Source of the DNA: Fragilaria crotonensis
Lineage: Eukaryota > Bacillariophyta > Fragilariophyceae > Fragilariales > Fragilariaceae
DNA: 41,577 bases
NCBI GenBank assembly: GCA_022925895.1
Contig: JAKSYS010000568.1
Coordinates: forward strand, 1-41,577
Direction of reading: 5' to 3'
Shown here: in pieces, positions 1,435-36,186 of the stretch
How positions within the stretch are numbered: position 1 is the first letter of the stretch
Layout of the letters: the number at the start of each line of letters is the position of its first letter
Notes under the pieces: generated by a model
Told to the model about the DNA's origin: nothing
The model's database searches: none
Seen by the model: only the letters and a program-made list of their open reading frames with translations
Position numbers and translations under genes: made by a program

Positions 1435-1525
1435 ACATTTCAATTTACTAAGTTTTTACATCACCTTTCCGTCCGTCAACCGTTTTCTCGCAGAAAAAGT
1501 ACTGCGCCTTCTCGTGCCGATCACC

Positions 1526-10063: not shown

Positions 10064-10243
10064 ATGAACGGACTCTACATTTTTCAACACGTGACATCAT
10101 CTCACTGACTCACTGATACGCATGGCGATTTCTCAACACAACACGAGCTCCCGCGGATGTTACATCCGCTAGAGCGGGGTACATAGCGAGTCCCGGCAGG
10201 TTCTTGCGCGATGTTAACCCTCTAATTAGTTCATATTTAAAAA
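10064..10243 (+). other. 3' UTR of copy B, with hairpin and terminal motif
   Basis: 180 bases from the ORF2 stop to the target-site duplication. It contains a palindromic hairpin at 10153-10169 (GCGGATGT, one central T, ACATCCGC) and a terminal stretch AACCCTCTAATTAGTTCATAT (10216-10236), then TTTAAAAA. Copy A ends with a near-identical AACCCGATAATTAGTTCTAT at 12001. Sharing only at the extreme end, between otherwise diverged UTRs, suggests a 3' recognition signal for the RT. There is no long poly(A) tail. Confidence 0.7.
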
Positions 10244-10258
10244 GGGACTCTGACGAAC
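10244..10258. repeat. Target-site duplication, right copy
   Basis: GGGACTCTGACGAAC, identical to 1420-1434. It directly follows the A-rich 3' end of copy B, and the copy A reading frame continues from its first base. Confidence 0.93.
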
Positions 10259-15760: not shown

Positions 15761-18700
15761 TCATGGCGTTGGCGTCAAGGCTGGAGTTGACGTTGGCGTT
15801 TTCACTTTGATGCTCTTCCCGTTACGACTGCTGCGACGTTTCGATGAACGACGGCTTTTCTTGGAGAATTCCTGGTATCCCGCACTCAAGTCGTTACTGG
15901 GCGGGGGCGTAACTGACAATGATCCAACCACCCCCGGAATCAGCGCGACCGATCTCAAGGATTTCTCAGACGACCGCATCGTACCCTGCACCTTCCTGAT
16001 CATTTTACGAGTTTCTTCGATTCCCTTCTGTTCCCATTCAGCGCGATTCAGTTTGGCATACGTCAAGTATTCGTCGCCGGATACTCCAAAGACGCCGCAT
16101 TCTCCCAATTTGTTGGCCAAAGGAATGACGTACTTGTCAAAGAAAACAAGCTGATCTTGGTACCATCCTTCGGAGGGGTCCTTATCTGAATGGCCGTCAA
16201 TATAGGCTCGATACAACTCTCGGTAAAGCTTTGTGTTCCATTTGATAAAGATATGCCAATGCTGCATGGTATGAGCCACATCCGAGGCCTGAATTATGTG
16301 CTCAATGACAATCGTTGCTTTGCGATTTACATCAACATCCAGCAAGAATGCGTCGTTGGACAGGCTGGGATCGAATGCCTTTTCCCATCTCTTTTTGCGC
16401 AAAGATACCATATCAGGATCCATAATGTCAGTTGCCATCACGACATTAACCACCAGCTGTCGGAAGCGTTTGCGATCCGATTCACTGGCGAATATGCAGG
16501 TTTGCAAGTCGGCGAAGCGAGGATCCATGAGTAATTCCCATGCGACAACAACTGAATTTTGTTCGGCAATGGACTTGTAGTTGAATATGCGAGCAATCCC
16601 GGCCCGTTCCTTCGTCAATTGGGAATTCGACAGGCCGGTATGATCCACGTCGTGAATCAAGGCGGAAAACACTACCGCAAACTGGGTCAGGGGATCAGAC
16701 GAAATTCCAAATGTCGAAAAGTGCAAGTCCGATGCGGTCATGCCAGACTCATTCGCATTGTCTTCCGGTAATATAATTCGCTTCATTAGTTTGTTGGCAC
16801 TCATGGTAACGTGACTGGCATGTTCAAAGTTGTGAAACGGAACTTGTCGATACAAGCTGGCGATGGATGCGACGAACTCCTTCATCTGCATCTGAACTTC
16901 TTTTGGCAGAACAGCAGCGCGACCTCGAGTGGAGGAAAGGCTTGAATTAAACTTTGGAAGGGAAATCACTTCCACCACTTCGTCGATTATGAGTCCACTA
17001 CCCACACCCTCGAACGATTGGCGCGTCTTAAAATTGTCAGACGCATGTTTTCCAAATCGAACACTCCTGTTGTTTTCAGGGGCCATCAATCTATGCTGGA
17101 CAACCTTTTCAAGAAAGCTCATCAATACAGCCACGTTCCAATCAATTAAGCGTTCTTCCTTTACATTAAGTGACAACCGAGACATGACACTTTCAGCGTC
17201 GGACGGCGTATTGCCCGATGTACGCTGGGGGAAGGGAGAATGCGGCTGCTGACGAAGGTAATCCACTTTCCATAGATTTTCATCGGAAATATTCTCCGAC
17301 TCCTGGATCAACGGTGTGGCAGATTCGGTCTTTGGTCGACGCAACATGGCCCAATATGTCTGCATTAGTGAGGATGTAAAGCGAGGTTAGGCTATTTTGC
17401 ACCGTAAAGAGTTATAAACGGGCACACAGAATGCACATACCTGCAATTCCCCTTTTCCCTTGGCAGTGATTTTGCCATCTCGTTTCGTCAACCAGTGTTG
17501 TTTGCCTGCCTCGCGAATCAACTCGGCGGTAGTTTCCGAAACTTGAATCTTCCCCGCTTCACCAGCGCTTTCAATGCGACTCGCAGTATTCATGGTATCC
17601 CCAAAAAGCTGAAATCGTGATTTCGCTCCTCGCAAGACTCCTGCCGTGACGGGTCCACTGTGCAGTCCCACTCGTAGTCCCAAATCGGACGTTCCCGGTC
17701 CCAAGACAGCTTCGAGCTGTTCTGTCAATTGATTGGCAATGGTAAGGATTTTATGGGCGAACCGTACCATGGTCTTGGCGTGATCCTTGTTGGGCGTTGG
17801 CAATCCCGAAACGGCAACGTAACAATCACCAATCGTTTCGACTTTGAACACTCCGAGACGTGTGGCAACAGCATCGAATTCATGATACAAGGTTTCGAGT
17901 AACTTGAAGACTTGACTTGGTTCTCTTTCCGAGCTCCATGCTGTAAAGCCAGCGATATCGGCAAACATCTGTAATGAATGAACAACATATTAGATAAACG
18001 GTGTTTGCAGAAAATCTCATGGTTATTGCATTGAGAACTGAGATCCGACATGTCATAACCGGTGCACTTACCACTGTTGTATTTGAAAACATTTCGGCAA
18101 TGGGTTCATCGTCGTCTTGATGCTCCATAGCATAAACATCATTCGGAGATGTGCTCGTCAAAAAGTTGGTCAATCGTGTCTTGGGGTTGTTGGCATGTCG
18201 TTGTTGCGTCAAACTGAGCCGTCGTCCTCGTCGTCGTCGTAGGGGAATACTGATCAAGGCATTATTTGGAGAAGGAAGCAGATCATTGTTGTTGCTATCA
18301 TTGGCTCTCTTGTACGCCATGGCCTGCCCGAACAGTCGACGGCGAACCACGGCGGGGAAGAGAGATTTGATAATGGCATTGGACTTGGCGGCACTGTCCA
18401 ATACACGCTTCTGTCGTCGATCTACCAGAATGCTGTACAGCACAAAGAGGAATATCGATGTCACGGACAAGACAATCGTTGTCAGCGTATACGTGAAGGC
18501 AAGACCCGTGTGGAATGATTGTTCGTATTCAGTAGTCGGGTAGACAGTGATTGAGTAAATGCAGAATCCTTGTTCACCATTTGTCGTTTCCTCAAAATTT
18601 GTAGATAATGATGAGGAATCGTCAGGATTGGTAGCAGCAGCAGTGTGCGTCATGATTTGTTGACGAAGTTGTTCCAAGGCTTTAAGGACAGACACAGTTT

Positions 18701-19957
18701 TTGCCATTTGTTGGAAGGACACGTCGTGCTGGTCGCCACTGCCGAGATGCGATGCGATTCCCCTCCTTGACAAGGTACGTATGGACTTGTCCACACGTGT
18801 TCTCCAAGACAATGCAGACGGTGGGTGCATCTGGTACAACATTATCAAATAGCGTGATCCATTCAATTTCAGCACCAGTAATGCCAAGAACAATGTCATT
18901 GTCGTCGCCATCTGCGGCAGCATTGAGAATGGGCAACACAGTGAAGGAACGAGGGGTACTGGAATCCTCCAGTGACGAGTTGTTGCCGCCATCGCGGACG
19001 TAATTGGCCGTATAATCGTCCAGAATATTACCAAACAGAGGAGTTTCTGTTTTTGCATTTGAGAAATTAAATGCATTTGGTATGATCGAATCAAGATTCA
19101 ACATATTGAGATGACGTTTTTCCTCGGAAGGATTGATTTGCCAAATTGGTAATTTTCGGTTCGTGGTTGAGTTGGGTATTGACGTGTCGTCCATCCTATC
19201 GTAGTTCGTTTGCCCCAGTCGATAAATCCCCGCTTCGATTGGTCGGATAAAGATATTTTCTGAAATTCCCGCATATGCCGCATGTTCTGCAGCATATTGT
19301 TCCCATTCGGCTTGTTGCTCCGCAGTCACAATAGATGGTGCAAAGAATAGTGATGCGGCCCCCCGATGTTTGCAAATCTCCCAGTGTTTGCGTTTCGAAA
19401 TTTGGTAGTGTAACATTGGGTGTCGTACTGTTGTTGCTGTTGCCATTCGTCGTGTCTGCTTCTGATAATGCAATCAGTGATTTGTAGGCAACCGACAGAG
19501 AGAACAGTGCCCAAAGTTGATTTGTATTTCGTTGTACAAATACATCCAGGAATCGTGTCGAATCACTTTCAAATTCATCTGAAAATCGTTTGTATTCTTG
19601 CGCCGTAGTGTAGGTGTAGGACATGGTTGCAATCGCGGTCCCTGATAATACCAACATGAGGACCACGGACCATTTGACGGCCATAATGTTGGTACTTTTT
19701 GCGATTTCAATCATGTCATCATCACTATCTTCATTATTATTAGTGTTGTTGTTGCTGTTGTTGTTGAGAAAAGGTTGATGATGACGTTGATTGAAAGTGT
19801 TACGACCCTGTGTCTTGTCATTCGACGCTCCCGTGCGCATACATGTGTTGACTGTGTGTGAAAATGAATCATCACAAGCAAAACTCTCGACATCAGCATT
19901 TTCGTACACGTCGGGATGCGAGGCTTGACGTATTTGACGTGATTGTTCTGACAGCAT
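15761..19957 (-). CDS. Receptor-type class III nucleotidyl cyclase-phosphodiesterase fusion (gene 1)
   Basis: Exons 19957-18072, 17968-17441 and 17359-15761, with introns of 103 and 81 bp (gtaagt...ttacag; gtatgt...atgcag). Exon 1 needs one base removed in each of two G runs (C on the plus strand): 19359-19364 and 18760-18763. With those the protein is 1336 residues. Cytosolic N-terminus rich in Asn; TM helix ~91-113; extracellular sensor, possibly CHASE/Cache-like; TM helix ~484-511. Cyclase domain ~622-795: MFADIAGFTAW and GDCYVA carry the two metal Asp, KVETIGD has the Glu typical of guanylate cyclases, and NTASRIES the Asn/Arg pair. The position usually Cys in guanylate cyclases is Gln (RFQLFGD), so GTP versus ATP use is open. 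Class I PDE domain ~975-1250: HNFEHASH, HDVDHTG, QASDVAH and the purine-binding Gln of DQLVFFD. It should make and hydrolyse cyclic nucleotide at a membrane in response to an outside signal. If the two indels are real the gene is dead. Confidence 0.88.
17360..17440 (-). other. Intron 2 of cyclase-PDE gene 1
   Basis: 81 bp, phase 0, donor CAG|gtatgt, acceptor taatgcag|ACA. It lies exactly between the end of the cyclase linker (KGKGELQ) and the PDE exon (TYWAMLRR). The tandem paralogue has no intron at this point. Confidence 0.85.
17969..18071 (-). other. Intron 1 of cyclase-PDE gene 1
   Basis: 103 bp, phase 0, donor GTG|gtaagt, acceptor cattacag|ATG. It splits the cyclase domain just before MFADIAGF. 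The paralogue reads through the same position ([13 protein letters not shown]) without an intron. Confidence 0.88.
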
Positions 19958-21629
19958 GAGTGTATTGTGTTGTGATTAAGTTGCGCTATGCAAGTGAGTG
20001 TGATACTGAAGGAAGGAGGAGTACAAGGTACGCTAGCAATGCAGTCTGTCGCTGCAGCGAAACAGCAAAGTCGATGACGATTCGTTGTTGCGTGTCTTGG
20101 GTTATTGTTCTTGAGACGTTGATGCTTTGTATGCCTGCAGTAGGGTACAAGTGGCGAAGGAGTAGTAATAACGGTAGGTATTCGAAGTACGAGAGCAATA
20201 CCAGCTGATTGAGTAAAGAGTTGGACAACATCCGGCGCAAACAGACACAATGGGCTGTTACCACTTTTCCGCGAGTCACAGGAGCATTCATAATAAATTT
20301 TTAACCAATCAACCATACATACAAGCGGAGTCTACTGTATGTGTGCTGAGACAAAACTTCCTTCCTCGTCAACAGTCAGGAAATAGTCGTATCTGGCAAA
20401 ATCACTGCTGCAACTCGCTCGATAAAGGACTATATAAGCCCAAGAGGCTTAATTCTCGATGTGTGGTAGTAACAGCAGAATTGCAGTACTCCAGTGCCAC
20501 TTCTTACATCGAATTCCACACAAACGTCCATAACAACATGACCAGTGACCGGTCATCAAGCTCCCAGAAATGAGGCTTAGTCGGACGTCGGCAGGCATCC
20601 AGACTCGAGACATTCAACACTTAAGCGCAAAATAACGGATTTAAATCCGATTAACCGTTTCCATAAATACGTACTACCTTCCGTTACTGTCAGATCCGTT
20701 GTTTTCGCTTGATCCTGATTCCTGACCTTTTGGTTTTTATGCCTGTCTCATCGGAAGTAGGTTGTGACTTGTAACCGTGGACGTGCATCAAATGTCTGAT
20801 GAGAAAGGGCATATGACCCCCAACATTGGTCCAAATAGCACACTGAAGGATGCTTCCTGCTATAGAATGGTAGATTGTTCGAATAAAACGACAGTGTGTG
20901 TGCTGAAGGAATGTCCGTGGGATTAGGACAAGTTGAAATTCAACATCAGGACATGCGAAACAAACCAATCATTCAACACATAACAGGACGTCAGCATCAA
21001 TTCAACACCACCACAAACCCAGCTCATTATATTTTCACATGCTGTAATCAGATGATACGAAGAGGGGGGCAGGCTGACAAACAAAATGAAGTTACCCACT
21101 TTGGCGGTGCATGTTGCATTACACTCTAGTGTACGATTGTAGCAGCACTTGTAGATACTCCACGGCCTTTATTTGTGTAAATCTTGAAATCCTGTTACCT
21201 TACACACGTTGTCCCGTAGGCAACCTTTGATTGCCCTTCATATCAAGTAGGTGTTCATCAACTCCGTTGCATACAAAGACAGAATTCGTTCATTCGACAA
21301 GCTTTGTACGTAGTGGCGATGGCACCGTCAAAAACTACGGAAAGACTCGGTTCGTCCAATGGCTTCTCGACACACGCACACGGCACGACACATGGCGCCC
21401 AAGTTCAGGACCATTATCGACCCCGACCCTGGAGGAAAAGGTGCCAAGAGGCGAATAGTGCGACAGCCGGTAGCGTTTTCGCAAGACTATATAGTAACTG
21501 CACATTAGATTCTAGTATCGATATATTGTTCATCAGATACTACTTCGTTTCCGACTTCAGCAGGGTTGCCTTAACTCAGCCTTACGATTGGTTCGGAACT
21601 TAGAATAGCGGACTGGACTTAAAACGTCG
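19958..21629. other. Intergenic region upstream of gene 1 and downstream of gene 2
   Basis: 1.67 kb between the tandem genes; must hold the gene 1 promoter. A perfect 14-bp palindrome CGGATTTAAATCCG lies at 20636-20649, flanked by AA and followed shortly by CCGTT, so a larger imperfect dyad is possible. A TATATAAG string near 20432 points to the plus strand, away from gene 1. ORFs of 75-107 codons show no domain. No transposon ends recognised. Confidence 0.4.
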
Positions 21630-24600
21630 TCACACCAATGGAGGAATATTATCGGGAACTTCGTCCTTCGGAAGTAGTGGAATATCCATTTTTTTGGGTT
21701 CGATCTTTTCAGCAATCAGCAATTCGTTCGCTGGTGATATTGATGTGATAACACTTGGTGGTGGTGTGTTATTTTCCCCATGTCGCTCTTTGTAATTCTT
21801 CAGCATGTTGGCGACCACAGTTTTGCCTTTGATTACCCATTCTTCACGATTTTCCAGAGCAAAACCAAGATATTCGTCGCTGGCGACACCAAACACACCA
21901 CATTCTTTCAGCTTCTTTGCCAAAGGAATGATGTAGTTGTCGAAGAACCATATCTCACCGCCGTACCATCCTTCCGAAGGGTCCGTGGCGGCACGTCCAG
22001 CAAGATACGCAGTGTACATTTCACAAAACAACTTTTCGTTCCATTTGCTGTAGATATGCCAGTGCTGCATTGTGTGAGCGACATCTGATGCTTGAATAAT
22101 GTGCTCAATCACAATGGTAGCCTTGCGGTTCATATCAACGTCAGACATGGAGGAGCACTTGGATTCGTCAAAGGCTGTCGCCCACCGTTTGTCGCGCAAC
22201 TGTTTCAATTCCTTGTCAACAATGTCAGTTGCCATAACAGAGTTGACAACTAGCTGCCGAAAACGGCGTCGCTCCGTTTCCGTTTCGAAGATACAGCATC
22301 GCAAGTCTTGATATTGATCATCCATAAGAATACCCCATGCAATATCCACCGAATTTTGCTCTGCAACGCTCCTGTTGTGATATTTTGCAGCGATTGGTGC
22401 ATTTTCTTTGACAAGTTGAGCGTTTGTGACGCCATAATGATCCACATCGTGGATGAGAGCAGAGAATACAATAGCGAGTTGGCAGAGAGGATCGGAGCTT
22501 ATCCCAAAAGTTGAAATATGTGAAATTCGTTCCATCGACTCAAGACTGTTTTGCACTTCTCCGACGGATTTTCGTCGTCGCAACCGACGCTTCTCTTCAT
22601 CTGGTTGAACAAAGTCGGTCTCGCCTGGAGCAATAATTCGCTTCATCAACTTATTTGCCGAAAGTGTCACATGACTGGCATGTTCCAGATTATGGAATGG
22701 CACATTGCGGTAACAATCTGCGATCCTCGAAATAAAATGATGAAGCTGGCCCTTGACTCTGTCAGAGATTCTGGAGGCATCTGGGACAAGGGTTCCAAAT
22801 CGAATCGAAGCCTCTGAGTAGGTTGGAAAGCTTATAACCTCAGAGACTTCATCAAACGCACAAGTTACCGTATCATCTTCGGTGAACTCGGCTGAGTGAG
22901 TGCTGTTATCCATACGACGTCTGACTTGTTGCTGCGTTCGAATCGAGCGCCACACCACAACCTTCGATAAAAGTTCACCAAATATTTCAACGTTCCAATT
23001 AACCAGTCGGGCTTTTTTATCGGCATCAACTCCATAGCTGTCAATCGTTGTGTTGCCCCATGTGTCAGCAGCCGTCAAAGCCTTGCGCGGCGAATCAAGT
23101 GAACCAGGTGGCTTGGTTTCGGGTGCATCATGATTGTTATCATTGAGACCGCCATGACCATTTCGCCCAGTCTTGGAGGTGGGTGCTCTCTGAGGCCGCA
23201 GCCACCAGGTCTTCATCTCCCCTTACCCTTTGCGTTCACGAGACCCTCACGTTCGGTGAGCCAATGCCCTTCCCGCCCCGTCTAAGAAGCATAGCAGTTT
23301 CTTCTGATACATGAATTCTATTCCGCGTTCCTGTGCTTTCCATGCGACTCGCAGTGTTCATCGTATCTCCAAAGAGTTGGAACCGAGCCTTTTCACCCCG
23401 TAGCACGCCCGCCGTGACTGGACCAGAGTGCAGCCCGACACGAATCGCCAAGTCACTCGTTCCTGGACCCAGGGAAACTTCCAGTGACTTTACTAATTCG
23501 TTCATTTTGAGCAGGCACTCGTACGCGAATCGAGCCATCACCAAGGCGTGGTCCTTTTTGGACACAAAAATGTGAGATAATATGTTCGTACAGTCAATTC
23601 CAGCATCTTTTCAAATCATGCGCACGACACATACCTGATTCGGATCCGGAAGTCCAGTAACTGCAACGTAGCAATCTCCAATTGTTTCGACCTTGAAGAC
23701 ACCAAGCCGGGACGCTAATTCGTCAAACGCGTGATACAGAGTTTCAAGAAGATAAAACACTTGAGAAGGCTCCCTCTCCGAACTCCATGCCGTAAACCCT
23801 GAAATATCCGCAAACATAATCGTGGTTTCTGGAAACAAGTCCGCAATGGGATCATCGAGTCGGTATTGTTCCATATCGACTCTATTTTGACTTGCGCTCC
23901 GATGTAAAAAGGTTCGTAGTCTCGTGGTGGCTGGCTCCGCCACTCGTAGGTCGTCGTTGCTGGCGCGACGGGCAATGGAATCCCATCGTCTCATGGCAAT
24001 TCGTCGTGTTTGTTGCGTCGTCGTCGTCGTCGTCGTCCGATCCTTGGGCATTGTTGTGCCAGTGGATGTGGTCGTGGCAGAGGAGGTTCCTTCTTGTTGT
24101 GCAAAGAGACGATTTCGCACCACTGCGGGGAAGAGAGAATTGACAACATTACGGAAACGAACAGCTTCACCCATGACATGTTGTTGCCGTCTGTGGACCA
24201 GCACATCGTAAAGAGCAAACATTAAAATAATGAATGCAAAAATTACGGCGGACACGGCGGTGTAGATGGCAGGCAAATTCGTCTTGAAGGCAGCCTCGAA
24301 CGATGATGTTGGGTATACAGAAAGACTGTATCCAAAGGTATCCCACGTGTTGCTTCCATTGTTGCTCTGCCAAATTCCAGATGTCATGTTTTGTATCGCC
24401 ACGGCGGATACCTTTGTGGTGACGACATAATTGTCGTATTGAGGGTCATGCAAATCTCCATCTCCGAGGAAGACCACGTACCCATCAAAAATCTCAAACG
24501 ACATGACGTCTCCACCACCAGTCACCAAAACAGCAACGATGGATCCTTCTGATGGTGAGACTGTCTGGAATTGAGTTAGCCAGTCCACATCCAGCTGAAC

Positions 24601-25554
24601 AGCACCGACTACCGACTGAGGTGGTGTGATTTGATTGAATACGGGTGTGGACAGAAGGGACCTGGGAGCGGTTCCCTTCATATCCGACATGATGGGTGTC
24701 ATTTCCTCCATTAAACTGTTGTACATGTCCTGCAATCCTGGAACAGCGTAGTAGTTGGTAAGAATAAATTGCGCATTTTCCGGAGCATTGCTGGTCGACA
24801 ATAAAAAGCCGGGAAAGTAAGGTCCAGGCCCTGGATCTGGAATAAGCGTCCCGTTCGGCCCTGGCATGTAAATGCCATCGGCCAATGTTCGGCAGGCAGA
24901 TGATGATGACGACGAATCAACCGCAGTTGTACAAGACGATGCATCGTTTGGTTGCACAGTCAATTGATTGGCATTCTCCAAAACAAATGCCTCCCACGAG
25001 GCCCGAGTCTCGTCCGTGACGAGTGGAGAAAACAAAATTGTATGCGATCCTGTGATAATGCGATCTCCCTTGAGTCGTAGGTCAAAGTCTGGTAGGAGAG
25101 AGTTTGGCCATGTCTTATTGTAATACTGAGCATCCGATGTCAGGGACACGGAGACGGAAATGGATGTCAGGATTTTCACTTCAAAGATGGTCAAGAAATT
25201 GTCGGTCAATTGGTCTGCAAGAGATTCAAAGTAGGTTTCGAAGAGTGATTGTTCCCTTTGGGCAGTAGATTCGTGAATGAATACCGTTCCCAAGACCCCG
25301 ACAGTCACCAAAACAGCCAAAAAGATTGACCTTTGAATGCAAACTTTCTGAGAATCTTTCTTGACTTGTTCGGTAAACAGGCTGCCTTGCATTTGTACCA
25401 CATTATCCATCCTTCGGCCTTGAGCTGTGTCTGCTCCATGAGCTGGAGTTGGCATCGCTGACAATGCGGACAAGGGCATTGAATAATCATCTTCTTGATT
25501 TAGTTGCAAATCGAACGAGTCTTCTGAGGGATGGAATGATGACCGGCGCTCCAT
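21630..25554 (-). CDS. Receptor-type class III nucleotidyl cyclase-phosphodiesterase fusion (gene 2)
   Basis: Exons 25554-23635 and 23553-21630, with one 81-bp intron. ATG 25554 (MERRSSFH) is chosen because the longer frame begins at TTG. Exon 2 needs one base added in each of two short G runs (plus strand CCC 23267-23269 and CCCC 23219-23222); the protein is then about 1281 residues. TM helices ~73-94 and ~430-452 enclose an extracellular domain with Asn-glycosylation sites, a Ser-rich insert and a late segment like gene 1 ([22 protein letters not shown]). Cyclase ~577-730: [39 protein letters not shown] ~920-1190: [22 protein letters not shown]. The invariant purine-binding Gln is Glu (GEIWFFD; codon at 21954-21956). 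Intact metal ligands suggest catalysis, but substrate affinity may differ. Same domain order as gene 1, so a tandem duplicate, though old to judge by divergence and intron positions. Confidence 0.88.
23554..23634 (-). other. Intron of cyclase-PDE gene 2
   Basis: 81 bp, phase 0, donor CAG|gtatgt, acceptor ccaaaaag|GAC. It joins DPNQ to [10 protein letters not shown], matching the uninterrupted TPNKDHAKTMVRFA of gene 1. The acceptor lacks a pyrimidine immediately before AG but is the only AG that keeps the alignment. Confidence 0.75.
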
Positions 25555-26775
25555 AGTTGCACAAATACTTCTCAATGCTTCTCAATGCTAACGGTAGCTG
25601 ATTACTTCAGGACCAAGGATCAAGACTTGTCGCAGGTAGTATAGTCGGTACTGCAGAAGGGGTCCAGTACTGTGACAGTGTCTTCCAAGCTTGCAGGGAC
25701 AAGTACTTGTGTGATACAATTCTTTGTAATCAATTCCAACAGAGATCCGAGAACAGAGCGCTGTCCAAATTGATCAATGAAGTACAACGAAGGACCTTTC
25801 ACGTATCACCTATTGCAGTAAGGATATAATGCCCGAGTACTGTCACTTGTATAGCAATAGTACGCTTTCGCTCCAAACTTTCACGCTGTGCACCAACTGA
25901 GTGTCCTTGGGTGTTGCGTTGACGTGTTGTACTGATTACTGGTACCTCGTAGCCGTGTGTATTGCTAACAACAATCTTGTATCAATGTAAACACCTGTCC
26001 ACAAACGTTGCACAACACACCGTACACCGATCTTTGATTCAAGATATCAAATTCGTTACCGTGCGCTTTCCAAATTGGTGCTCCTTGGTATGATAATGCC
26101 CGAACAAGTACGAACTCTCTATCACTCTCACTCTCTAACTAGAAGTTGTCCAAAAGATGTAGGAGATGATTCCACAACGGCACACACCTTTTTTCGGATG
26201 GGTACCAACGTGAGGGAGTTTCTGTTGTGGTTGTTGTTACGTAAGCAGCGGAGGCAGCGGCGGAGGCGGCGGCGCAATAAAGGCACTATGATTGCGTGCG
26301 GAGTTTCCAACAACCCGTATGGCACTCCGCGTGTGTTTGTCCATATCCTACTACTACAATACCTACTTGCCAAAAAGTCCAGAGAGCACGTGTTTTGGGT
26401 CATGGGTCATGGGAAGGGTCATTTCATAGTTCTGATTCACGAGATTTCACACTTCGAAGAACCTACAATTAGAGTCATCATGTCCCATTTTCGAACACTT
26501 CTAACCCCAGATAACTATACGAGTACCGGTAGTTTTCAGATTTTGTAACTACACATGTAGTCTGAGTGATGTCGTGTACCATTGAATGTCGTATCCTCAT
26601 CCGAACGACAGTCCACAGACATGGACACCTATGCGTCGGATTTATTGTAGCAAAGGCATATTCACCAAGTGCGACTGATAGAGCCAGTCGCAATGTCCTC
26701 GAATCGAGCTGGCCATCACATGCACCATCGTACGATACGGGAGTAATGACCTCAAATGAATACTGGTACGAAGTA
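25555..26775. other. Intergenic region upstream of gene 2
   Basis: Contains the presumed gene 2 promoter. A 10-bp direct repeat (GCATTGAGAA twice on the minus strand, about 25573-25594) lies just 5' of the ATG. A GC-rich purine run (GGAGGCAGCGGCGGAGGCGG, about 26249) stands out from its surroundings. No gene recognised. Confidence 0.4.
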
Positions 26776-26799
26776 CTAGCATAAACCATATAGTGGGAC
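26776..26799 (+). repeat. Left terminal inverted repeat of the pogo-like element
   Basis: 24 bp starting CTAGCATAAACC directly after TA 26774-26775. Perfect inverse match to 30015-30038; after it the ends diverge (GGGTTTTTTT against TAAAAAAA on the other end). Confidence 0.92.
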
Positions 26800-27039
26800 G
26801 GGTTTTTTTCAAAGAGTACTGGGACTGCATCGTACTCGGTCTGATTTTGAGATAACCATTCACGAAGATCGCCTTTCTATCCGCAAGAGAATGTGTAGGT
26901 AACTCGAAACGAGTAGGGGTTACCGTAGCTAGTTTTTGCAATGGTGGAGTAGTTCTGAAGGTATGATGTCTCCTAGAAGCGAGACAATATTTTGGCGCAC
27001 AACATCATTTCTTTGAAATTAATTACGAGAACTTTAACC

Positions 27040-29685
27040 ATGCCAAGGAAGAGGAAGGCATGTCCTTTGTCCATTGACAATGCATCAGTTAAAGTAGGAA
27101 GACCTTCAAAAGATGGGTGCACCATTGAAGATGCTGTAAAATTGGTGAGTTACTCTTTTAAACGGGCTTTCAAATCACCATTGTGAATTGAGTTTTGATG
27201 CACAACGTATCGATAAGTGAAGGACTCATAATTTTTTTCTACGTGATTTTTGTACCATAAAATTATATGCAGGTCGTATGCAACAAGGTGTCACTCATTC
27301 AAGCGCTTCGTGCTTGTCTGCTCCATGAAAGCGTTACGGTACAAAGCCTTCATTATCATGTGAAAAGGGCTCTTCGGAATGGAGGGATGTGTCTCAGTGG
27401 AAGCCTCAGCAAGAGCAGCAAAGAAGGAATGGTGATTGATACTCACGGCCCTAGTATGACGACAGAGCTAGCAGACGAACAAACCTCTCCTTTGACCGAA
27501 GCATCGTCCTTATCCTTTTCGGATTCTACGAAGCGGATCAGAAAGACATCAAAGCAAGCTAGCACAGCTCGTATTCAGGCGCAACAAGAAAGAGGATTAC
27601 TCTCGTCGCTTTAAAGAGGCTTTCAAAGAAGCCACGAGGATAATCAAAGAAAAGAAGGAAGGCGGGTCGTCGAATGAAACAGCCCAACAAGTTGTAACCA
27701 GGCTCAATGCAGAATACAATCTGAACGGAACAAGGAAGCTTAGTCGAACAACTGTTTATAGAGAAATCAACAAAGGTAATATTGGGATGAGCCCTCCGAA
27801 GAAAGGTCCCGTACCAAAATCCCCGATTTGTTGTTGGATGTTACGGCCGCTCATACTGAGGTATGCCAAGTGGGAACTGATGGGGAATTACGAGGACAGG
27901 AAATAAAGAGAGTACTTGGAGCTGCTGTCTCAGGGACTAAGTATGACAACAAGTTCACTATTGAGTCAGCATGGAGAAAGCTTCGATCCAAGCACCCACA
28001 GCGAATCACAGCAGGAGGCCAGATGTCCGTGGAGGATGCTCGGTCAAAGTGGACAACCCATGATAACTTGCAACAGTGGTTTGATGATGCCAAGAAAGAC
28101 TTGATTTCTACGGGACTTGTGATTGATAGAGAAGTAAGGAATGGCAACGGTGATTTGTTGTCAGAGTTAGATTTTCGTTCTGATCAGGTGACCCGTCGAA
28201 TCATAAACATGGATGAGACACACCACCATGATCTCTCAATCACTGGTGACAAGGGTGGGTCTCGGTCAGTTGTTTATCATAATCCTGATTATCAGAGAGG
28301 TTGCAAGCGAAGTGTTAAGGCGGGTAGGCACGTCACGGGTGTCTACGCAACGAACGCAGCTGGCGAGGCATTGCCTCCGATGTACATTTTCGATTCAGGT
28401 GCAAAGCTGGAGCAGAACTTTCGGGTGAAGACTAAGTGGTTGGAGGGACTTCCCGCCATCAAGGGAAGGTTTGGATGCCCCGAGCTGATTGAGGAGTCAA
28501 GTTTCTATTCTGTGAGAGCTCGAGGTTCCATGGATGACTCGCTTTTCATTGAGTACATCGAGAAAGTAGTGTTGCCACTATACCCCAACATCTCCAAGAC
28601 AACCAAGTTCGATCCTGTGAATGGAAGACTGCTTTGTGGTCCTGTTATTCTCAAAGTTGATTCAGGTCCCGGGCGAATCGTTGCTTCAGAGGAGAGCATC
28701 TCGAAGCGAGCCGACTTCCTTGAAATGGGACTCTACATTCTCATGGGCCTCCCGAATGCGACTAGTGTCCAACAAGAGATGGATGCACTTTATGGGGCTT
28801 TCAAATCAGCAACTTATGCTCGCGGTGAAGTCATCTTGATTGAAAAATGAGAGATCAAGCCAATCATCGAAGCAGAATGCTGGAGGAAGAGGCTGACGAG
28901 GACGATGAAGCCACCGAAGAAGAACAAGCTGATGGTGCCAATACAGGACGCGCCGAGGGTGTCTTGTCTCTTGGGTTTAATGATTTGGCAACAGTGGTAA
29001 ATGGAAGGGAAAATGATGACGTTTCATTGAAGCCATTCGACAAGTGCTTTACCAAAGAAAAAATCCTCGGTTCGTGGAGGAAGGTGGGTTTTGTTCCGTT
29101 TACGAGAAGTTGTCTAAGTAACAAAAGAGTGCGTCATGAATTGGGACAGCAACAGAAAAATCATGCTCTTGAGGAACTCAAGGTGAAGTATGATGACCTT
29201 GTGGCGTTGTCAAAGGACGATGGACTCAATGCTGGAGTATTCTCTGCCACCATTCCCGTTTCTAGTCGTGCGATGAGAGTTGCAAATGATGCAGAGCAGG
29301 TGAAGAAGCTGCTTGAAACGAAAGGCGCCTTATCGGCATCTTCAATCTGGAATGTTTGTGGCAGTCGTATTGGCAATTCAAGGATTACTCTTCAAGCTCA
29401 AAGGCGCAGCTTGCCATCAATGCGGCAAAGCTGCTGCACAGTTGCAGAACAGAAATGATCGGCAACGGAAGATCCTTGCAAACGCACAAAGAGCTCTTGC
29501 AAAGTATCGTTCATGCAGTGAATCACTGACTGATAAAGACTGGGTTGATATCATACGTTGGGTTCTCCTGAGTCAAAGGCAGAGGGGCTTATGAAGGATC
29601 TAAAGAAAAAGCTGCAATTGTTGCGAAGCTCGCAACTCTTGAACGGGAGTGGACGACCTACATACCACTTCCAGAGGCCACCTAG
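27040..29685 (+). pseudogene. pogo-like DDE transposase, frameshifted
   Basis: ATG 27040 (MPRKRKACPLSID). A 128-bp intron (27145-27272, gtgagt...atgcag) joins AVKL to VVCNKVSLIQAL. The N-terminus resembles a Psq/CENP-B helix-turn-helix (VSLIQALRACLLHESVTVQSLHYHV). The catalytic core shows MDETHHHD (first Asp), LKVDSGPGR (second) and LPNATSVQQEMDALYGAFK (third Asp), in the pogo/Fot1 DDD pattern. Frame changes occur near 27585, at A4 27816-27819, at A5 28843-28847 (just after the third Asp, giving a false TGA), and near 29390, 29572 and 29610. The reading ends AAIVAKLATLEREWTTYIPLPEAT at TAG 29683-29685. Between shifts the sequence is clean, so decay is recent or partly due to assembly error. 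Together it would be about 830 residues, long for pogo, with an acidic stretch and a CxxC pair towards the end. Confidence 0.85.
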
Positions 29686-30014
29686 ATGATCAGACCACTT
29701 CTTCTATGTGTTGTGAACAAGTTTAAAGCATTAGGATTAAATTAGATCATTGTCTACCTTGTCGTTACCGTCATCATGGATGTCGTGAATTGTTTTCAAA
29801 GAGTTTTTGTCGTCATTAACACGACAGAAACACGCGCGTCCCACTATTGACCTAAAAAAATTCTGCCCCCAAAATATTCGACTAAACGCATCTCCTCGAG
29901 TATCGCTCCGTTTTCCAAAATTCCTTCACCAGAGGATGCGCAAGAAAATTCTGCGTCGATTCATGTACTGTAGAGTTTTATCCGATGATTTTAAGGCACC
30001 CATTAATTTTTTTA

Positions 30015-30038
30015 GTCCCACTATATGGTTTATGCTAG
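30015..30038 (-). repeat. Right terminal inverted repeat of the pogo-like element
   Basis: GTCCCACTATATGG...ATGCTAG followed by TA 30039-30040. Perfect complement of the left end. Confidence 0.92.
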
Positions 30039-30040
30039 TA

Positions 30041-31938
30041 CGGTATTTCTATAGACACAGCAACACAAGCCCGAGATTCGAATGCCTACATAAAGTTGCT
30101 GTGTGATTTTATTCACACTATATTTCAAAGAGTCCATTTATTTAGCAAGCTCGACCTGCTCGATTAGGGAAAAACGCCCGTCCATCAGTACGCAACCGCT
30201 GGTACTCACTTCCGAGGGCTTGTTCCAGTCAATGTCCCCACCAAACCCACGGGCAGGATTGCTTGCCCTCGTTTCGATGCCGATAAACCGCACCGCATCA
30301 TTGCTGGAATCCACCGAAGCAACGTCACGGCCCGGCGCGAGGCCACCTCGTATTCCAACCGAAAGGCACAGGTACTACTTCGCGCACACAGTACACGCAC
30401 ACGTTGCATACGTCATGGCAGACCATGAACTCCCACCATGGCTGCGCCAATCACTTTCGGTGCCGAGTCTTTCAAGGACTACATGTGACAATTCATGATG
30501 TAATCCAAAGTCATAAGCAAGGATTTCCATAAGACCTGTGCTTTTCACCGATGTCATCCTGTGACATGCCTGCCCGCGTTTTCCCTCCCGTCGTTCGAAT
30601 TGGTTTGTGGTGATGCTATATTATTTCCCATTCCCTCCCATATCTTGATGGTCGACTCTGAGAGTTTTATGTTCCACTGCCTATCTGAGACACCATATGA
30701 CCCTGACTCTCGTTCCGTGTTCGCCCATGGCAATAATGGTTCTATGCCTTGCAACACTCTGTTCTACTCGAATTGGGCCATCTTGGGGAACAGCACTACA
30801 GATTCAGAACCATACTATGTAGCAGTTTCCATAGTATTTTGGGACTTATACTTCAAACTCTTATTACTTCAATTGCACTCTTGCCTGTCATCAGCCAATT
30901 GTAAGGGGAAAAGGTACAAGGTCTATTGTTGAGAAAGCATCTATTCCTCAACACTGTCTGCAACACCCAACTGTCCATGTTGTGAACACTACCAATGCCA
31001 AACACCATTGCCAAAGTGAATTACATACGGTTCTTCGGTATTGGTGGACCACCCAATCTCCCACCAACACCCCCAAGCGCGGTAGGGCTCACTACTTGGG
31101 GGGAGGACGAGATCACACAAAATCCAAGAATTATCCTTGCTGTCACTTCCCCTCTCCATCATTCTTGATGCTTTCCTTTCCCGTTACTGGGTCTGATAAA
31201 CTGTTCCAATTCATAGGTAGTAGCGGATTCTTACCTTCTTGGCAGGGTGAAGTAGTATATAATCAAAGAAAAGGTATGAAAGGGATACTAGAGTAAGAGT
31301 GATTGAAGGTACTGGTTGACACCCATTACCCATTCCTGTGTCATACTATTGAATCAAATCCGCTACGACATCGCCACCAAGTCGACTTACGAAAAAGGAA
31401 GAGTTGAACAAGAAGTTCGTAAGATATATATAACGGCTAGTTGTACGCCGTCCATGAATCGCCAACACACAACACACACGCCTTTCATGTGTAACGGTCA
31501 AAAGTAACCGTACGACCAGCAGTTGGACGGCACATACTTTGCATACCAGTACCAGAGTAGGAAATGCCAATATTTTGCCTACTACTGGAGTATCAGTTTT
31601 CGTACCGTATCGTCCGTACTTAAACTCATCTCGCAGGTACAGTATGTACGACACATACAGCGCATGCAGTGCCTAGCATTGCTGGTCAAACATACAAGAG
31701 AATATCTTCCGAAGGAAGGACAAGACTACGCTTTCCTTTGCTGCTACTGCTGTTGCAAGTCAAGTCATCGCCTGGCGCTGTTGAGTCGCTTTGCATGCTG
31801 ACAAGGAATAAACCAGCACTGTCTTTTGTGTGAATGACTCGTTGATTCGGAATCTATCGACGATACTTGATTGCATATTGCATCTCACACACTCAAAACT
31901 TGGACTTTGCCGACTGCGATATTTTCCAGATCAGAACC
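30041..31938. other. Intergenic; no supported gene; upstream region of the SET-like gene
   Basis: Open frames of 60-131 codons occur on both strands (for example 30103-30498 and 30561-30932 plus), without recognisable domains, splice logic or agreement between frames. The last few hundred bases must include the promoter and leader of the gene starting at 31939, and the ATG context AACCATGG is favourable. No TIR, LTR or tRNA recognised. Confidence 0.4.
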
Positions 31939-34900
31939 ATGGAAACGGTACGAACCGTGGCCGAATTTCCAACGAATGGTCGTGTGGATAACTGCAATGA
32001 TGATCATGGCGATGATGGAATTATCGAATTCCGATGTGATGTTTGCCGGATTGCTACATTCCCTACGTTCGAGGAAGCATTTGATCATGAACAGACATGT
32101 ACGAATAGTCCTCCTCCTATTCTTGTGGCACCGGTCCGCGCAAGCAGCGTCCGCGCAGGCGTCGCTTCGGTTCCCAAATCAGATCCGTTATTAGTACCAG
32201 TACCATTATCACATTCATCCACAAACGGTACAAAAAGTATGGATCAACCGATACTTCCAGAATCAACTGCAACTGCAAATGCGATACCTTCACCACCAAG
32301 TGCGTCGACTGTTTTATCAACAACAACAACAACAACGACGACGATTGACAGAAACAACAACAATGACGCAAGGCACAATACGATACGATTTGCTCCGAAA
32401 TGCGCCACCAAATCTTGTATAACATTCCTTACGACTAAAAAAGTCGATGTGACGAATGGTGGAGCGAGTATGAAACCTTCATCGACAGCAACAATGCATC
32501 AAACCAAGACACACACCAGTGATCCCGGGAAAGCCAATCGTTATCATCATGATGACGACGATATCACTGCAACGCCACCACCACCACCAACAACAAATTC
32601 TGATGCAGCACGTATGCCAACAGATGATTCCAATTCGAATACCGGTAGTTCGCTTCATGGAAACTCGAATGTTTGGAATGATAACTCGACGATCAATGCC
32701 CGACGCAAAAAAACACCGAAAAAGTCTACAACGGCTTCTCCTCCGACGATGAGCACCACCGATCCAGCGACGGCGGCGACGACGCTATCACCTACGAGTC
32801 CTTCCGGTAGCAATATCATGGTTTCGTTCAATGAAGCAGCAGCAGCAACACATTCCTCGTGTACTACGACCAAGGCTCGTGGAGGCTCCAATGCCAAAAA
32901 TCGCAAACCAAAAGCTGCGTCCCGTCCGTTGAAAGCGACCGCAACTCAAGCCCCTGTTGGCGCTCCAAAACACATCTTGTTGGCCACCCCGACGAATTCT
33001 CAGGGAAAGCTCGATACTGGAAACACGACCGTTGATGCAAGGAGTAGTCCCACGACAGTGAGCAATCGCAATGCCTTTGTCGGTCAACGAGTCTACGCCC
33101 AATTTCCTGGCAACAGCATGTATTATTGGGGAATAATTACCAAGGTATCAAGCACTTCACTTCCATCCGTCGAAACGCAGAACTCGATATCAAACGGTGT
33201 TGTCCCACTCATCACCTATCAGGTGTGGTTTGACGACGAAGACGTCGCGGAGGGAATATCGGGCAAGGACATGATAACCGAAGAAGAGTACCTGACGAAG
33301 TGGCTACTGACATACGATAACCAGCCGCCTCCTGCGCGCCCGCGTCATTTGATCGAATACAATTTGGATGACAATGGCAATATCATTGTCCCAACTACAT
33401 CCAGCAGTGAGGATGGCGGCAAAGGTACTCATGTCAGTCCAGTTGCGAAACCGAAAACGCCCGTCGATTTGTTTTTGGAGAAGTGTGGAAATTGTTTGTT
33501 GTGTGTAAGACCAGAATGCGGAAAGTGCATGACCTGTGTCCGTGCTGAGAAGAATCCATCCGAACCGCGAGGTGTTTGCTTCCGCAAGGTACGTTTGTTT
33601 GTCGTTTCAACTCGCGCGCGCGATGTGACTTTCTCCGACCGTTCGTGTCTCAATTTTGTTACCAACCACCCACAGATGTGCCTCGAAGTTGACGTGGAGG
33701 AAAAGGCACAACCAGCTGTTGGATTTCCCTACGGGTGGAGGTTCTACTTCCAATCGACCGATGCGTCATCGACCGTCGTCACACTTCCTATCGGACTCGT
33801 CCTGATCAGTCCGTCGGGAAAATCGTTTGACTCGCTGGATGCTGCATTCCGTCGACATCGCAAATCATTCGAGCGCAAAGTCAATTTAAAGACGGATTTT
33901 TTCAATCATATTGGAGAAGGTTGTGCAGATGAGAGCATCGAACAACGCAATGTTAAACGAAAGGTAGTACCACCCCAGACGAAGAAGCGTCGTAGAGTGT
34001 CGGACGGAAAGTTAAAGAGCGCATCATCACTCAAGAAGCGGACACTCTCCGCCACAAAAGAGGTCGGATCCCGAGTATTCTGCAAGTTCACGAATGGCGA
34101 ATATTATTGGGGTGAAATCTCCGACAGGAAAGAGGACGAGTCGGGAAACGTTACTTATGCAGTTCAATTTGACGACGGTGACTTTCTCGACAGTATTGCT
34201 GACACGTCGGACGACCACCCTGACGGCAATATCTACACAGAAGCTGGATTCTTCAAGAGCTCGAAAAAGTATCCTCCCAAAAGGCAATCCACGTCCGTTC
34301 CGCCGGCGTCCAAGCGCATGAAAGTGGTCCAGCCGCAGACGCTTCTTTTGCAAAACGACAAGAACGGTCAAGTCGGGTACACCCTCGCAGAACTGTATCG
34401 GAAGCGATGTAAGAAATGTAGTGCGTGCAAAAAGGAAGACTGTATGCGCTGCAATAGTTGTACCAACAATAGAAACGGTTTTGTCGAAGAGACCGAATGC
34501 TGCGTTTGGAAGGTAAGTTGCTTGGCGTCTTGGTCACATTTCATGGACAACGACCATCCTAATTCCTTCTCTTGCGCACTCCTTGGTCTTGAGTTACAGA
34601 TGTGCGGTTTTATTAACAAAGATTTGAAGAAACAGCCTGCACCAGGTTTCCCCCCAGGCTGGATGTTCGCATCGGGGACAGGACACATTTTAACGATCAC
34701 TGCACCATGCGGAGATGAATTCCATTCGTTCGAGCAGGCGTTGAATCGTTGTAGGGGCGAAATTCAGGATGCCAAAGCTGCCCAGGTTGAGTTTGAGACA
34801 CATGTTGGGGGCTCATTGCTGTGGAACGACGACGGGCATTTTCTCGTAGGAAAGGAATACTATCATGAATGGACAGATGCCGATGGCAGAAAAAAGGTGA

Positions 34901-36186
34901 TCTACGGAAGTATCACTGGATGTGAGCGCGACAAGCTGGATAAGGATTACCTATGGTTTACAGTGACTTATAATGACGAGTCCTTTGATGACATAGTCAA
35001 ATCAAAACCCTCTTATGAATTGGACTTCAAACCCATCAAAAGGATGTCCCTGGAGTGGGCTCTTGGTGGGTACTTGGCATACGCTTCCAAACATGGGTCA
35101 TCTCTCCTCAAGGATTCCGCTGTCTCTTCATCAGTTCGTAGATGGCTGACACCAGACATGCGCATAGAGGATGTGGTTCCAGGTCCTGGTGGCAAGGAAA
35201 TGCCACGACTGACATTGGTTTGGAATGGATTTCGTCTTGTTTTCTCAGTTCGACAGTCCACTATTCTCAATGCCGGGTTGGGGGTGTTTGTCCAATGCAC
35301 CTCTCTGGTTCCACTTCGCACCAGCTTGAAACTCAGGAAGGGCGAAATGTTGGATCTGGGGGTTTATGCCCCATTACGAAAGGAGGATTTGAAGGAAGAG
35401 TGCGTCTTTTTGGTGAAGAACTTCATCATGGGTTTGAAATGTGAGGAGTGGACGTTTGATGCAGGCCAAACTCCCGCATCACATCAATTGGACATAACGG
35501 ATGATTGGACTGGTGAGCTGCACGAAATTGCAGCACGGCGTATCCTGCCATACATGAACGAGTGTAAAGTGAAGGATAATCCCTCAGTGTACGCGGCGCA
35601 TGATCCAGAGGGTGTACTGCACTACATGCTGGATGCGAGGGTCAGTGATTTGACACTACCTGCGGATGGGTCCATGGTGGAGCTTTTCATCAACTATGGC
35701 CCCAAATACGAGCGTATAAGGATCCGGAGGAACTACTCTTTCCTCCCAGCTGCAGAACAACTGTCCCATGCAAAATCTGTACATCAGGAGAATGCGGAGT
35801 ACCTTGAGGAGATCTCTGGATATCAGGGACCTGAGGTCACCTGTTGTGTTGAGTTTGTTAGTAAGATTGTCAAAACTGGAGCACTGCCTGATGAATTCCT
35901 TCTGAATGCACTGTGTGTAGCAGTGGCCTTGCGCCATCGTGGGAAGATGTTATCGGATGAGATGGCTGATTCTTCTCCCTTTGCTATTGAATTTTCCGGA
36001 ATCATGGGTCAATTTGAGGTCGTGGTGCACGATTTACTACATCGAATGCTGAATGAAACATTTTTGGATCTTGAGGCTGCTGACGAGCATGGTATTCTAC
36101 TGTCTATGCTGGTGAATGCTGTACTTACGGATTTGCCCTCAGGCCATGCCGAAAGGGTAGTTTCCTGCTTCTGTTCTAGCAAATGA
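31939..36186 (+). CDS. Multidomain chromatin protein: C2HC finger, (Tudor-like, CXXC, MBD-like) x2, SET-like
   Basis: ATG 31939 is taken as the start; the frame opens earlier from a TTG. Exons 31939-33588, 33676-34512 and 34600-36186; 1357 residues. Domains: C2HC finger 33-54 (CDVC-x13-HEQTC); long Ser/Thr/Pro/Asn-rich disordered region 55-370; Tudor-like ~381-455 (VGQRVYAQF, YYWGIITKV, VWFDDED); CXXC finger ~516-552 (CGNCLLC-x4-CGKCMTC...CFRK|MC); MBD-like ~566-632 (GFPYGWRF, SPSGKSFDS); second Tudor-like ~680-745; second CXXC ~795-831; second MBD-like from ~845; third Tudor-like near 895-950; SET-like ~1047-1210 (STILNAGLGVFV, HDPEGVLHYML, ELFINYGPKYERIRIRRNYS). CXXC fingers bind unmethylated CpG, Tudor-like folds read histone marks, and SET domains methylate lysine, so a KMT2-like role is plausible. 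The usual RFxNHS/C signature is not obvious, so catalysis is uncertain. Confidence 0.88.
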   Translation: METVRTVAEFPTNGRVDNCNDDHGDDGIIEFRCDVCRIATFPTFEEAFDHEQTCTNSPPPILVAPVRASSVRAGVASVPKSDPLLVPVPLSHSSTNGTKSMDQPILPESTATANAIPSPPSASTVLSTTTTTTTTIDRNNNNDARHNTIRFAPKCATKSCITFLTTKKVDVTNGGASMKPSSTATMHQTKTHTSDPGKANRYHHDDDDITATPPPPPTTNSDAARMPTDDSNSNTGSSLHGNSNVWNDNSTINARRKKTPKKSTTASPPTMSTTDPATAATTLSPTSPSGSNIMVSFNEAAAATHSSCTTTKARGGSNAKNRKPKAASRPLKATATQAPVGAPKHILLATPTNSQGKLDTGNTTVDARSSPTTVSNRNAFVGQRVYAQFPGNSMYYWGIITKVSSTSLPSVETQNSISNGVVPLITYQVWFDDEDVAEGISGKDMITEEEYLTKWLLTYDNQPPPARPRHLIEYNLDDNGNIIVPTTSSSEDGGKGTHVSPVAKPKTPVDLFLEKCGNCLLCVRPECGKCMTCVRAEKNPSEPRGVCFRKVRLFVVSTRARDVTFSDRSCLNFVTNHPQMCLEVDVEEKAQPAVGFPYGWRFYFQSTDASSTVVTLPIGLVLISPSGKSFDSLDAAFRRHRKSFERKVNLKTDFFNHIGEGCADESIEQRNVKRKVVPPQTKKRRRVSDGKLKSASSLKKRTLSATKEVGSRVFCKFTNGEYYWGEISDRKEDESGNVTYAVQFDDGDFLDSIADTSDDHPDGNIYTEAGFFKSSKKYPPKRQSTSVPPASKRMKVVQPQTLLLQNDKNGQVGYTLAELYRKRCKKCSACKKEDCMRCNSCTNNRNGFVEETECCVWKVSCLASWSHFMDNDHPNSFSCALLGLELQMCGFINKDLKKQPAPGFPPGWMFASGTGHILTITAPCGDEFHSFEQALNRCRGEIQDAKAAQVEFETHVGGSLLWNDDGHFLVGKEYYHEWTDADGRKKVIYGSITGCERDKLDKDYLWFTVTYNDESFDDIVKSKPSYELDFKPIKRMSLEWALGGYLAYASKHGSSLLKDSAVSSSVRRWLTPDMRIEDVVPGPGGKEMPRLTLVWNGFRLVFSVRQSTILNAGLGVFVQCTSLVPLRTSLKLRKGEMLDLGVYAPLRKEDLKEECVFLVKNFIMGLKCEEWTFDAGQTPASHQLDITDDWTGELHEIAARRILPYMNECKVKDNPSVYAAHDPEGVLHYMLDARVSDLTLPADGSMVELFINYGPKYERIRIRRNYSFLPAAEQLSHAKSVHQENAEYLEEISGYQGPEVTCCVEFVSKIVKTGALPDEFLLNALCVAVALRHRGKMLSDEMADSSPFAIEFSGIMGQFEVVVHDLLHRMLNETFLDLEAADEHGILLSMLVNAVLTDLPSGHAERVVSCFCSSK
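33589..33675 (+). other. Intron 1 of the SET-like gene (87 nt, stopless, in frame)
   Basis: Donor AAG|gtacgt, acceptor acccacag|ATG. Removal joins CFRK to MC, completing the CXXC zinc-ligand pattern. Its length is 29 codons with no stop, so retention keeps the frame but inserts 29 residues between zinc ligands. Confidence 0.85.
34513..34599 (+). other. Intron 2 of the SET-like gene (87 nt, stopless, in frame)
   Basis: Donor AAG|gtaagt, acceptor gagttacag|ATG. It lies at the same place in the second CXXC finger (CVWK|MC), in the same phase and at the same length as intron 1. The intron sequences themselves are not obviously alike. Confidence 0.87.

Follow-up and report, generated by a model that had tools for sequence, protein, structure and literature searches.

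A Diatom Gene with a Duplicated Tudor-CXXC-MBD-Like Module ahead of a Divergent SET-Like Segment

Results

Structure of the gene

We analysed a stretch of 41,577 nucleotides (nt) from the genome of Fragilaria crotonensis (contig JAKSYS010000568.1, positions 1 to 41,577; hereafter the window) and describe here the gene at 31939-36186, which we call A. Its paralogue on contig C762 is called B, and a gene on contig C553 (loci L073/L074) is called D. A haplotype-like copy of A lies on contig C152 and matches it at 97.2% over 8.1 kb, flanks included. Searches of the organism's own genome covered 62.1 Mb in 881 contigs. The features of A are the following:

31939..33588, + strand: exon 1, residues 1-550; the four indels that separate it from the C152 copy each have a length divisible by three
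32035..32100, + strand: C2HC-like motif, residues 33-54, by eye; sub-threshold match to DUF7128 (E 0.087)
33076..33258, + strand: Tudor 1, residues ~380-440; exon 1 matches Tudor_5 with E 0.0069
33484..33681, + strand: CXXC 1, residues 516-552, split by intron 1; eight-cysteine pattern
33589..33675, + strand: intron 1, 87 nt, GT-AG, phase 0, within CXXC 1
33676..34512, + strand: exon 2, residues 551-829
33709..33915, + strand: MBD-like 1 (GFPYGW...), residues 562-630; from an AlphaFold2 model and Foldseek
34060..34191, + strand: Tudor 2, residues 679-722; best Tudor_5 stretch 679-719
34408..34605, + strand: CXXC 2, residues 795-831, split by intron 2; eight-cysteine pattern
34513..34599, + strand: intron 2, 87 nt, GT-AG, phase 0, within CXXC 2
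34600..36186, + strand: exon 3, residues 830-1357 and the stop
34633..34806, + strand: MBD-like 2 (GFPPGW...), residues 841-898; homologous to MBD-like 1 (0 of 1000 shuffles)
34840..34998, + strand: third Tudor-like segment, residues 910-962, by eye only; conserved in B
35230..35757, + strand: SET-like domain, residues 1040-1215 (AGLGVF ... MNECKxxxNPS ... VELFINYGPKYE)
35758..36183, + strand: C-terminal tail, conserved in B and partly in D

The exons join to a protein of 1357 residues with a single terminal stop, as the original prediction had it. Unspliced, the DNA reads as a mechanical open reading frame (ORF) from 31867 to 36186, since in A neither intron breaks the frame or holds a stop. 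Intron 1 must be removed because it measures 89 nt in the C152 copy (which differs by two 1-base indels there) and 86 nt at the same position in B; neither length is a multiple of three and both would break the frame, which rules the intron out as coding sequence. Its sequences in A and B are dissimilar (750 of 1000 shuffles score at least as high). Intron 2 measures 78 nt at the same position in B, and the frame does not force its removal because in both genes it can be read through in frame. We call it an intron on three grounds: its ends are GT-AG, its position is equivalent to that of intron 1 in the duplicated module, and its sequences in A and B are dissimilar (424 of 1000 shuffles score at least as high) while the exon ends on both sides are conserved (0 of 1000 for each). 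Given this dissimilarity, we reject it as coding sequence. Thus, intron 1 is firm and intron 2 stands on its position and its lack of conservation. The protein-level evidence is independent of the intron 2 argument.

Each intron lies inside a CXXC finger and not behind it, where it had first been placed: Cys 8 is residue 2 of the following exon (CFRK/MC and CVWK/MC, the slash marking the junction). A CXXC on contig C55 was considered as evidence that the intron position is shared and set aside: there a GT follows CLKK, earlier than in A (by eye).

A reader module duplicated as a unit

The domains follow each other in the order described by the original prediction: Tudor 1, CXXC 1, MBD-like 1, Tudor 2, CXXC 2, MBD-like 2, SET-like. 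Compared as two sequences, residues 361-660 and 661-905 align across Tudor, CXXC and MBD-like segments (27% identity, E = 1e-20). This homology and the equal intron position in both modules and in B bear out the proposal that the module was duplicated as a unit. The GFPxGW motifs are indeed equidistant from the introns, both beginning at the 16th residue of their exon (residues 566 and 845, the exons beginning at 551 and 830). The two modules, each with its zinc finger interrupted by an intron, are the record of one entire reader unit having been duplicated cleanly. Two full modules are present in A and in the haplotype-like copy; as a description of the whole family this fails, B being without Tudor 1.

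Tudor 1 and Tudor 2 are similar to each other (0 of 1000 shuffles reach the score). On the whole of A, the Tudor_5 profile matches the two with E 2.8e-7 and 30.6 bits, just below its cut-off of 31. Among the 11 matches of a Tudor_5 scan of the own genome (E<=1), Tudor 2 ranks joint third with E 0.0013 and Tudor 1 ranks seventh with E 0.057. The proposed third Tudor-like segment is unsupported: it has no Pfam match, and 563 and 77 of 1000 shuffles reach its score against Tudor 1 and Tudor 2, respectively. In B, the first pair of the C2HC-like motif reads CVC.

Once spliced, both fingers of A and both of B fit the strict 37-residue pattern CxxCxxCx4CxxCxxCx13Cx4C, which none of the tested unspliced readings does. 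A laxer eight-cysteine form, CxxCxxCx4-5CxxCxxC...C...C, fits the two fingers of A and the two of B, whereas 20,000 shuffles of either protein gave no instance of it. The zf-CXXC profile (PF02008) aligns positions 8-48 of its 48 with spliced CXXC 1 (E 0.002, 18.5 bits against a cut-off of 26.5) and positions 6-48 with CXXC 2 (E 0.018, 15.5 bits); the first finger of B reaches E 0.11. Some points speak against the assignment. All of the fingers fall below the PF02008 cut-off and the second finger of B has no match to that profile. CXXC 2 of A, even unspliced, still shows eight cysteines with a Cx5C end; it is no proof of intron 2 on its own because this form fits the laxer pattern. The ligand set is nonetheless complete in both fingers of A. 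By eye, the fingers are devoid of the KFGG loop, a feature of CXXC fingers that bind unmethylated CpG.

MBD-like segments

We modelled the MBD-like segment with AlphaFold2 from a two-row alignment of A's own two segments. The model is of medium confidence (predicted local distance difference test [pLDDT] 63.3, predicted template modelling score [pTM] 0.48). Foldseek returned 268 PDB matches at E<=10, and ranks 1-34 were all MBD or TAM domains: MeCP2, MBD1-4 and BAZ2A are among them. Rank 26 is a 64-residue chain of the NuRD complex, which we take to be MBD2. The segments therefore probably have an MBD-like fold, as far as such a model can indicate.

Other comparisons pull the opposite way. The best Foldseek E is 0.028, with none <=0.001, and the template modelling (TM) score is at most 0.51 among the best 50 of the 268 matches. 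The MBD profile PF01429 is unmatched on all four MBD-like segments (A1 and A2 of A, B1 and B2 of B). Against the canonical MBD of the host, the scores of A1, A2, B1 and B2 were reached by 16, 108, 266 and 30 of 1000 shuffles in global alignment and by 90, 73, 54 and 94 of 1000 in local alignment. The name MBD-like is fair for a probable fold, although no profile calls an MBD. A sequence-profile search of the segment against PDB was discarded, its matches being at chance (best E 0.19).

The second methyl-CpG arginine finger of MBD domains is FRSK; the arginine position reads D, H, R and N in A1, A2, B1 and B2 (by eye). We do not claim that the module reads the state of DNA methylation because neither this arginine nor the KFGG loop is conserved.

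A divergent SET-like segment

The C-terminal segment of A contains SET-like motifs in the correct order: AGLGVF, MNEC and VELFINYG, corresponding to GxG, the N of NHxC and the Y of ELxxDYG. We compared it with SET domains of the same genome, where a PF00856 scan lists 66 matches, none within A. From 30 loci of these we obtained a set of 22 SETs, eight being dropped (five with stops, three too short); L042 and L043 in this set are an identical protein stretch. A hidden Markov model (HMM) built from the 22 aligns the first and last SET block of the segment in order, and its score is reached by 1 of 1000 shuffles for A and 0 of 1000 for B. (The program hmmsearch reported 660, 596 and 749 shuffles for A, B and D, the remainder being taken as lower-scoring.)

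In pairwise alignments with 200 shuffles, three of the 22 SETs, L047, L040 and L035, gave counts of 0-1 (global) and 0-7 (local) with A and B. Among the other 19, a global count as low as 1 was found only for L044 with B, and the local counterparts were L050 (0) and L029 (1), also with B. With 2000 shuffles, L047 was reached globally by 0 (A) and 1 (B) and locally by 1 (A) and 12 (B); global counts were 6 (A) and 2 (B) for L040, 7 and 10 for L035, and 1947 and 1697 for L027. Windows of A outside the SET-like segment are at chance against L047 (at least 15 of 200 shuffles) and windows from residue 961 on are at 0 of 200. L047, on contig C218, is a Pfam-positive SET (39.8 bits) that reads INEP where NHxC is expected and YGLNYD after the catalytic-type block. 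By summed global z-score, it is the nearest to the A/B family among the 22 compared. PRDM9, an active methyltransferase, is matched by B with 1 of 2000 shuffles globally and 2 of 2000 locally.

Other results go against a SET assignment. NHxC reads NEC in A, with E in place of H. Pfam calls no SET (PF00856) on any piece of A tested, nor a pre-SET match in A at E<=1. Aligned with hhalign, the SET-like profile and the 22 host SETs give a probability of 1.5% over 7 columns, and a search of PDB with that profile finds no SET protein. In absolute terms the host SET HMM scores are tiny, with A and B at 5.1 bits and full-length A at 1.3 bits. For D, 330 of 1000 shuffles reach the HMM score, the N-terminal block of D being outside that test. 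For the bulk of the 22 SETs the pairwise counts stay close to chance; L027, L028 and L030, classic nuclear SETs in appearance (by eye), are at chance in global alignment. L047, L040 and L035 were chosen after viewing all 22, a selection that their counts carry. The PRDM9 match of A is weak (46 of 2000 shuffles globally, 419 of 2000 locally). A single-sequence AlphaFold2 model of exon 3 was uninformative (pLDDT 36.8) and was discarded. ADP-sugar pyrophosphatase, which gave the only weak matches in the PDB profile search (best E 0.58), was taken as a chance result.

The shuffle tests against L047 and the host SET HMM thus give indirect support to a divergent, SET-derived segment. The name SET-like proposed at the outset is retained on these tests, Pfam making no such call. 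Nothing in the genomic sequence comparisons or in the uninformative exon 3 model showed another fold for this segment or a division of the ORF into separate genes.

Gene family and selection

B encodes a spliced protein of 1062 residues that is intact, with both introns at the positions found in A. A stretch of about 37 residues of its second MBD-like segment (locus L023, C762 1524-3220) is repeated, SPCGDELNSVQDA...THVGG occurring twice. Beyond A, the C152 copy and B, the family in this genome comprises a frameshifted copy of B and a decayed, probably A-type copy, both on contig C219, and fragments.

On C219, the decayed copy (L025, ~177-181 kb), which has many stops, and the frameshifted B copy (L024, ~157-160 kb) lie within about 25 kb, and short repeated fragments of the SET-like block are present besides the two. 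B and its frameshifted copy have a near-identical neighbouring ORF in common. The C152 copy of A differs from A by a 2-base indel in a TG run of exon 3, at 35912, which is either a frameshift in that copy or an assembly error.

D has the SET-like block and tail in common with A (30% identity, E 4.9e-4); the three stretches of D scanned with Pfam gave nothing at E<=1. The protein is longer and carries GW...DYYFMPPG in a C-terminal segment. We considered this segment as MBD-like and dropped it, the similarity to A1, A2, B1 and B2 not being above chance. No relatives were confirmed in viral contigs or prokaryotic genomes.

Selection acts on the protein. Between A and B, the ratio of non-synonymous to synonymous substitution rates (dN/dS) is 0.145 for the SET-like region (35041-35751) and 0.173 for exon 3, synonymous sites of exon 2 being saturated. 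Between A and the C152 copy it is 0.376 for exon 1, mostly low-complexity by eye, and 0.051 for residues 830-1267 (2 non-synonymous and 11 synonymous changes). Of the parts compared, constraint is strongest on the C-terminal one, where dN/dS is lowest. Paralogues, conserved intron positions and the SET-like dN/dS of 0.145 therefore indicate a functional, duplicated gene.

Genomic context

The silicon-transporter family, which marks diatoms and a few other silicifiers, has 19 matches in the genome, 18 of them above the curated cut-off, in keeping with a diatom host as the original prediction assumed. CpG methylation is plausible in this host because DNA-methylase matches are present (PF00145, 13 rows, some of which are exons of one gene). 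The genome scan with zf-CXXC gave one match at E<=0.001 and that with MBD one match above the cut-off; the host MBD gene matches PF01429.

Elsewhere in the window we observed the following:

1-11898: long ORFs that read by eye like reverse transcriptase and RNase H, in related tandem copies (also by eye), like non-long-terminal-repeat (non-LTR) retrotransposons; Pfam matched neither of the two ORFs tested at E<=0.01
15764-25575, - strand: guanylate cyclase-like and cyclic-nucleotide phosphodiesterase sequences, in two sets side by side
26777-30038: a 3.3-kb element absent from the C152 copy, with inverted repeats GCATAAACCATATAGTGGGAC and GTCCCACTATATGGTTTATGC at its ends, adjoining TA

The second of these is apparently a tandem pair of cyclase-phosphodiesterase genes: the phosphodiesterase profile PF00233 matches with E 2.3e-24 and 1e-24, and the cyclase profile PF00211 with E 4.9e-18 on the one stretch tested, the other being assigned by eye. 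The 3.3-kb element, which presumably resembles a Tc1/mariner-type DNA transposon, has two ORFs, neither with a Pfam match at E<=0.01.

Discussion

The architecture of A is supported as being of a chromatin type and recalls several known proteins. Like KMT2A and KMT2B (MLL), A has a CXXC finger and a SET-type domain in one chain, a parallel drawn in the original prediction. In A, CXXC occurs twice and the SET is divergent, and the PHD, bromo and FYR (FYRN/FYRC) domains and canonical SET of KMT2A/B are all absent from the Pfam scan of A (E<=1). MBD1 resembles A in combining an MBD with several CXXC fingers in one chain; it is not known to have a SET or Tudor, and in A an MBD-like segment directly follows each CXXC.

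SETDB1 and SETDB2 have an MBD ahead of SET, with a Tudor as well in SETDB1. The best Tudor profile of A is Tudor_5, and the MBD of SETDB2 is a weak fold match to our MBD-like model (rank 37, E 2.3). A differs in having two MBD-like segments, two CXXC fingers, no pre-SET match and a SET unrecognised by profile; neither the pre-SET zinc cluster nor the bifurcated SET of SETDB1 finds a match in A (Pfam, E<=1). We regard A as a variant and not a member of SETDB1 or of KMT2A/B because at least one tested defining feature fails for each. No description of this architecture appears among the titles and abstract openings listed from the open-licence literature searched. Some diatom DNMT5b proteins combine Tudor and CpG methyl-binding domains with an enzyme that modifies chromatin (PMC9998398). 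In DNMT5b the enzyme is a DNA methyltransferase, whereas in A it is SET-like.

We lean, by a little, toward the following model. A would be a nuclear, chromatin-docked, divergent SET protein, working like MBD1 and SETDB1 fused in one chain. The two tandem modules, each a Tudor followed by a CXXC joined to an MBD-like segment, would dock A with two-fold avidity: the CXXC-MBD-like pairs may contact DNA and the Tudors methylated histone tails. The C-terminal SET-derived domain would then act on a nearby histone, most likely as a divergent PR-like lysine methyltransferase or, alternatively, serve as a binding scaffold. Nuclear location, DNA and histone ligands, catalysis and any tie to CpG methylation, including the coupling of CpG state to histone methylation put forward in the original prediction, are inferred.

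A pseudo-enzyme or scaffold is the most serious rival, plausible without being our expectation: SET-like catalysis would be lost, and A would be a multivalent reader recruiting partners. NEC in place of NHxC, the failure of the SET profile and the lack of a visible pre-SET or post-SET cysteine cluster are what such a protein would look like, and the relative D carries NYR, not NYG. However, GLG/GFG, the asparagine of NE, the tyrosine of NYG and YE are kept between A and B under a dN/dS of 0.145. The altered NHxC is not peculiar to A either: the Pfam-positive L047 likewise reads INEP, and PRDM9 has VNCAR at this place.

A bolder form of the docking model is rather unlikely in our judgement. A would be a lineage-specific single-chain writer in which two CpG-reading CXXC-MBD tandems, together with the Tudors, gate a PR-like SET methyltransferase. 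If true, a single diatom protein would cover the task that animals divide between MBD1 and SETDB1.

A could also be a divergent orthologue of SETDB1, a histone H3 lysine 9 (H3K9) methyltransferase with Tudor repeats, MBD and SET, that has gained CXXC and lost pre-SET. We consider this improbable. Tudor_5 is described as 'Histone methyltransferase Tudor domain 1', which we take to be the SETDB1 Tudor, and the order of Tudor, MBD-like and SET-like segments resembles SETDB1. Yet A has no pre-SET profile and no canonical SET match, the SETs closest to its C-terminal segment are divergent diatom ones (L047) and not the classic-looking ones, and SETDB1 has one MBD and is not known to carry CXXC. We give equally little credence to an unrelated, diatom-specific C-terminal fold with motifs alike by chance: it would explain the missing profile and PDB matches, the uninformative exon 3 model, the very low SET HMM scores and the failure of D, but not the first and last SET blocks aligning in the correct order, nor the extreme shuffle results of A and B against L047, L040 and L035 while non-overlapping windows of A are at chance against L047.

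Among the diatoms that have been studied, most CG methylation lies on transposable elements, and in P. tricornutum CG-methylated regions also carry repressive histone marks (PMC9998398). The link between CG methylation and repressive histone marks in diatoms becomes directly testable through A because DNA-reading-like, histone-reading-like and writing-like parts stand in one chain. This combination suggests that one molecule may both read and mark chromatin.

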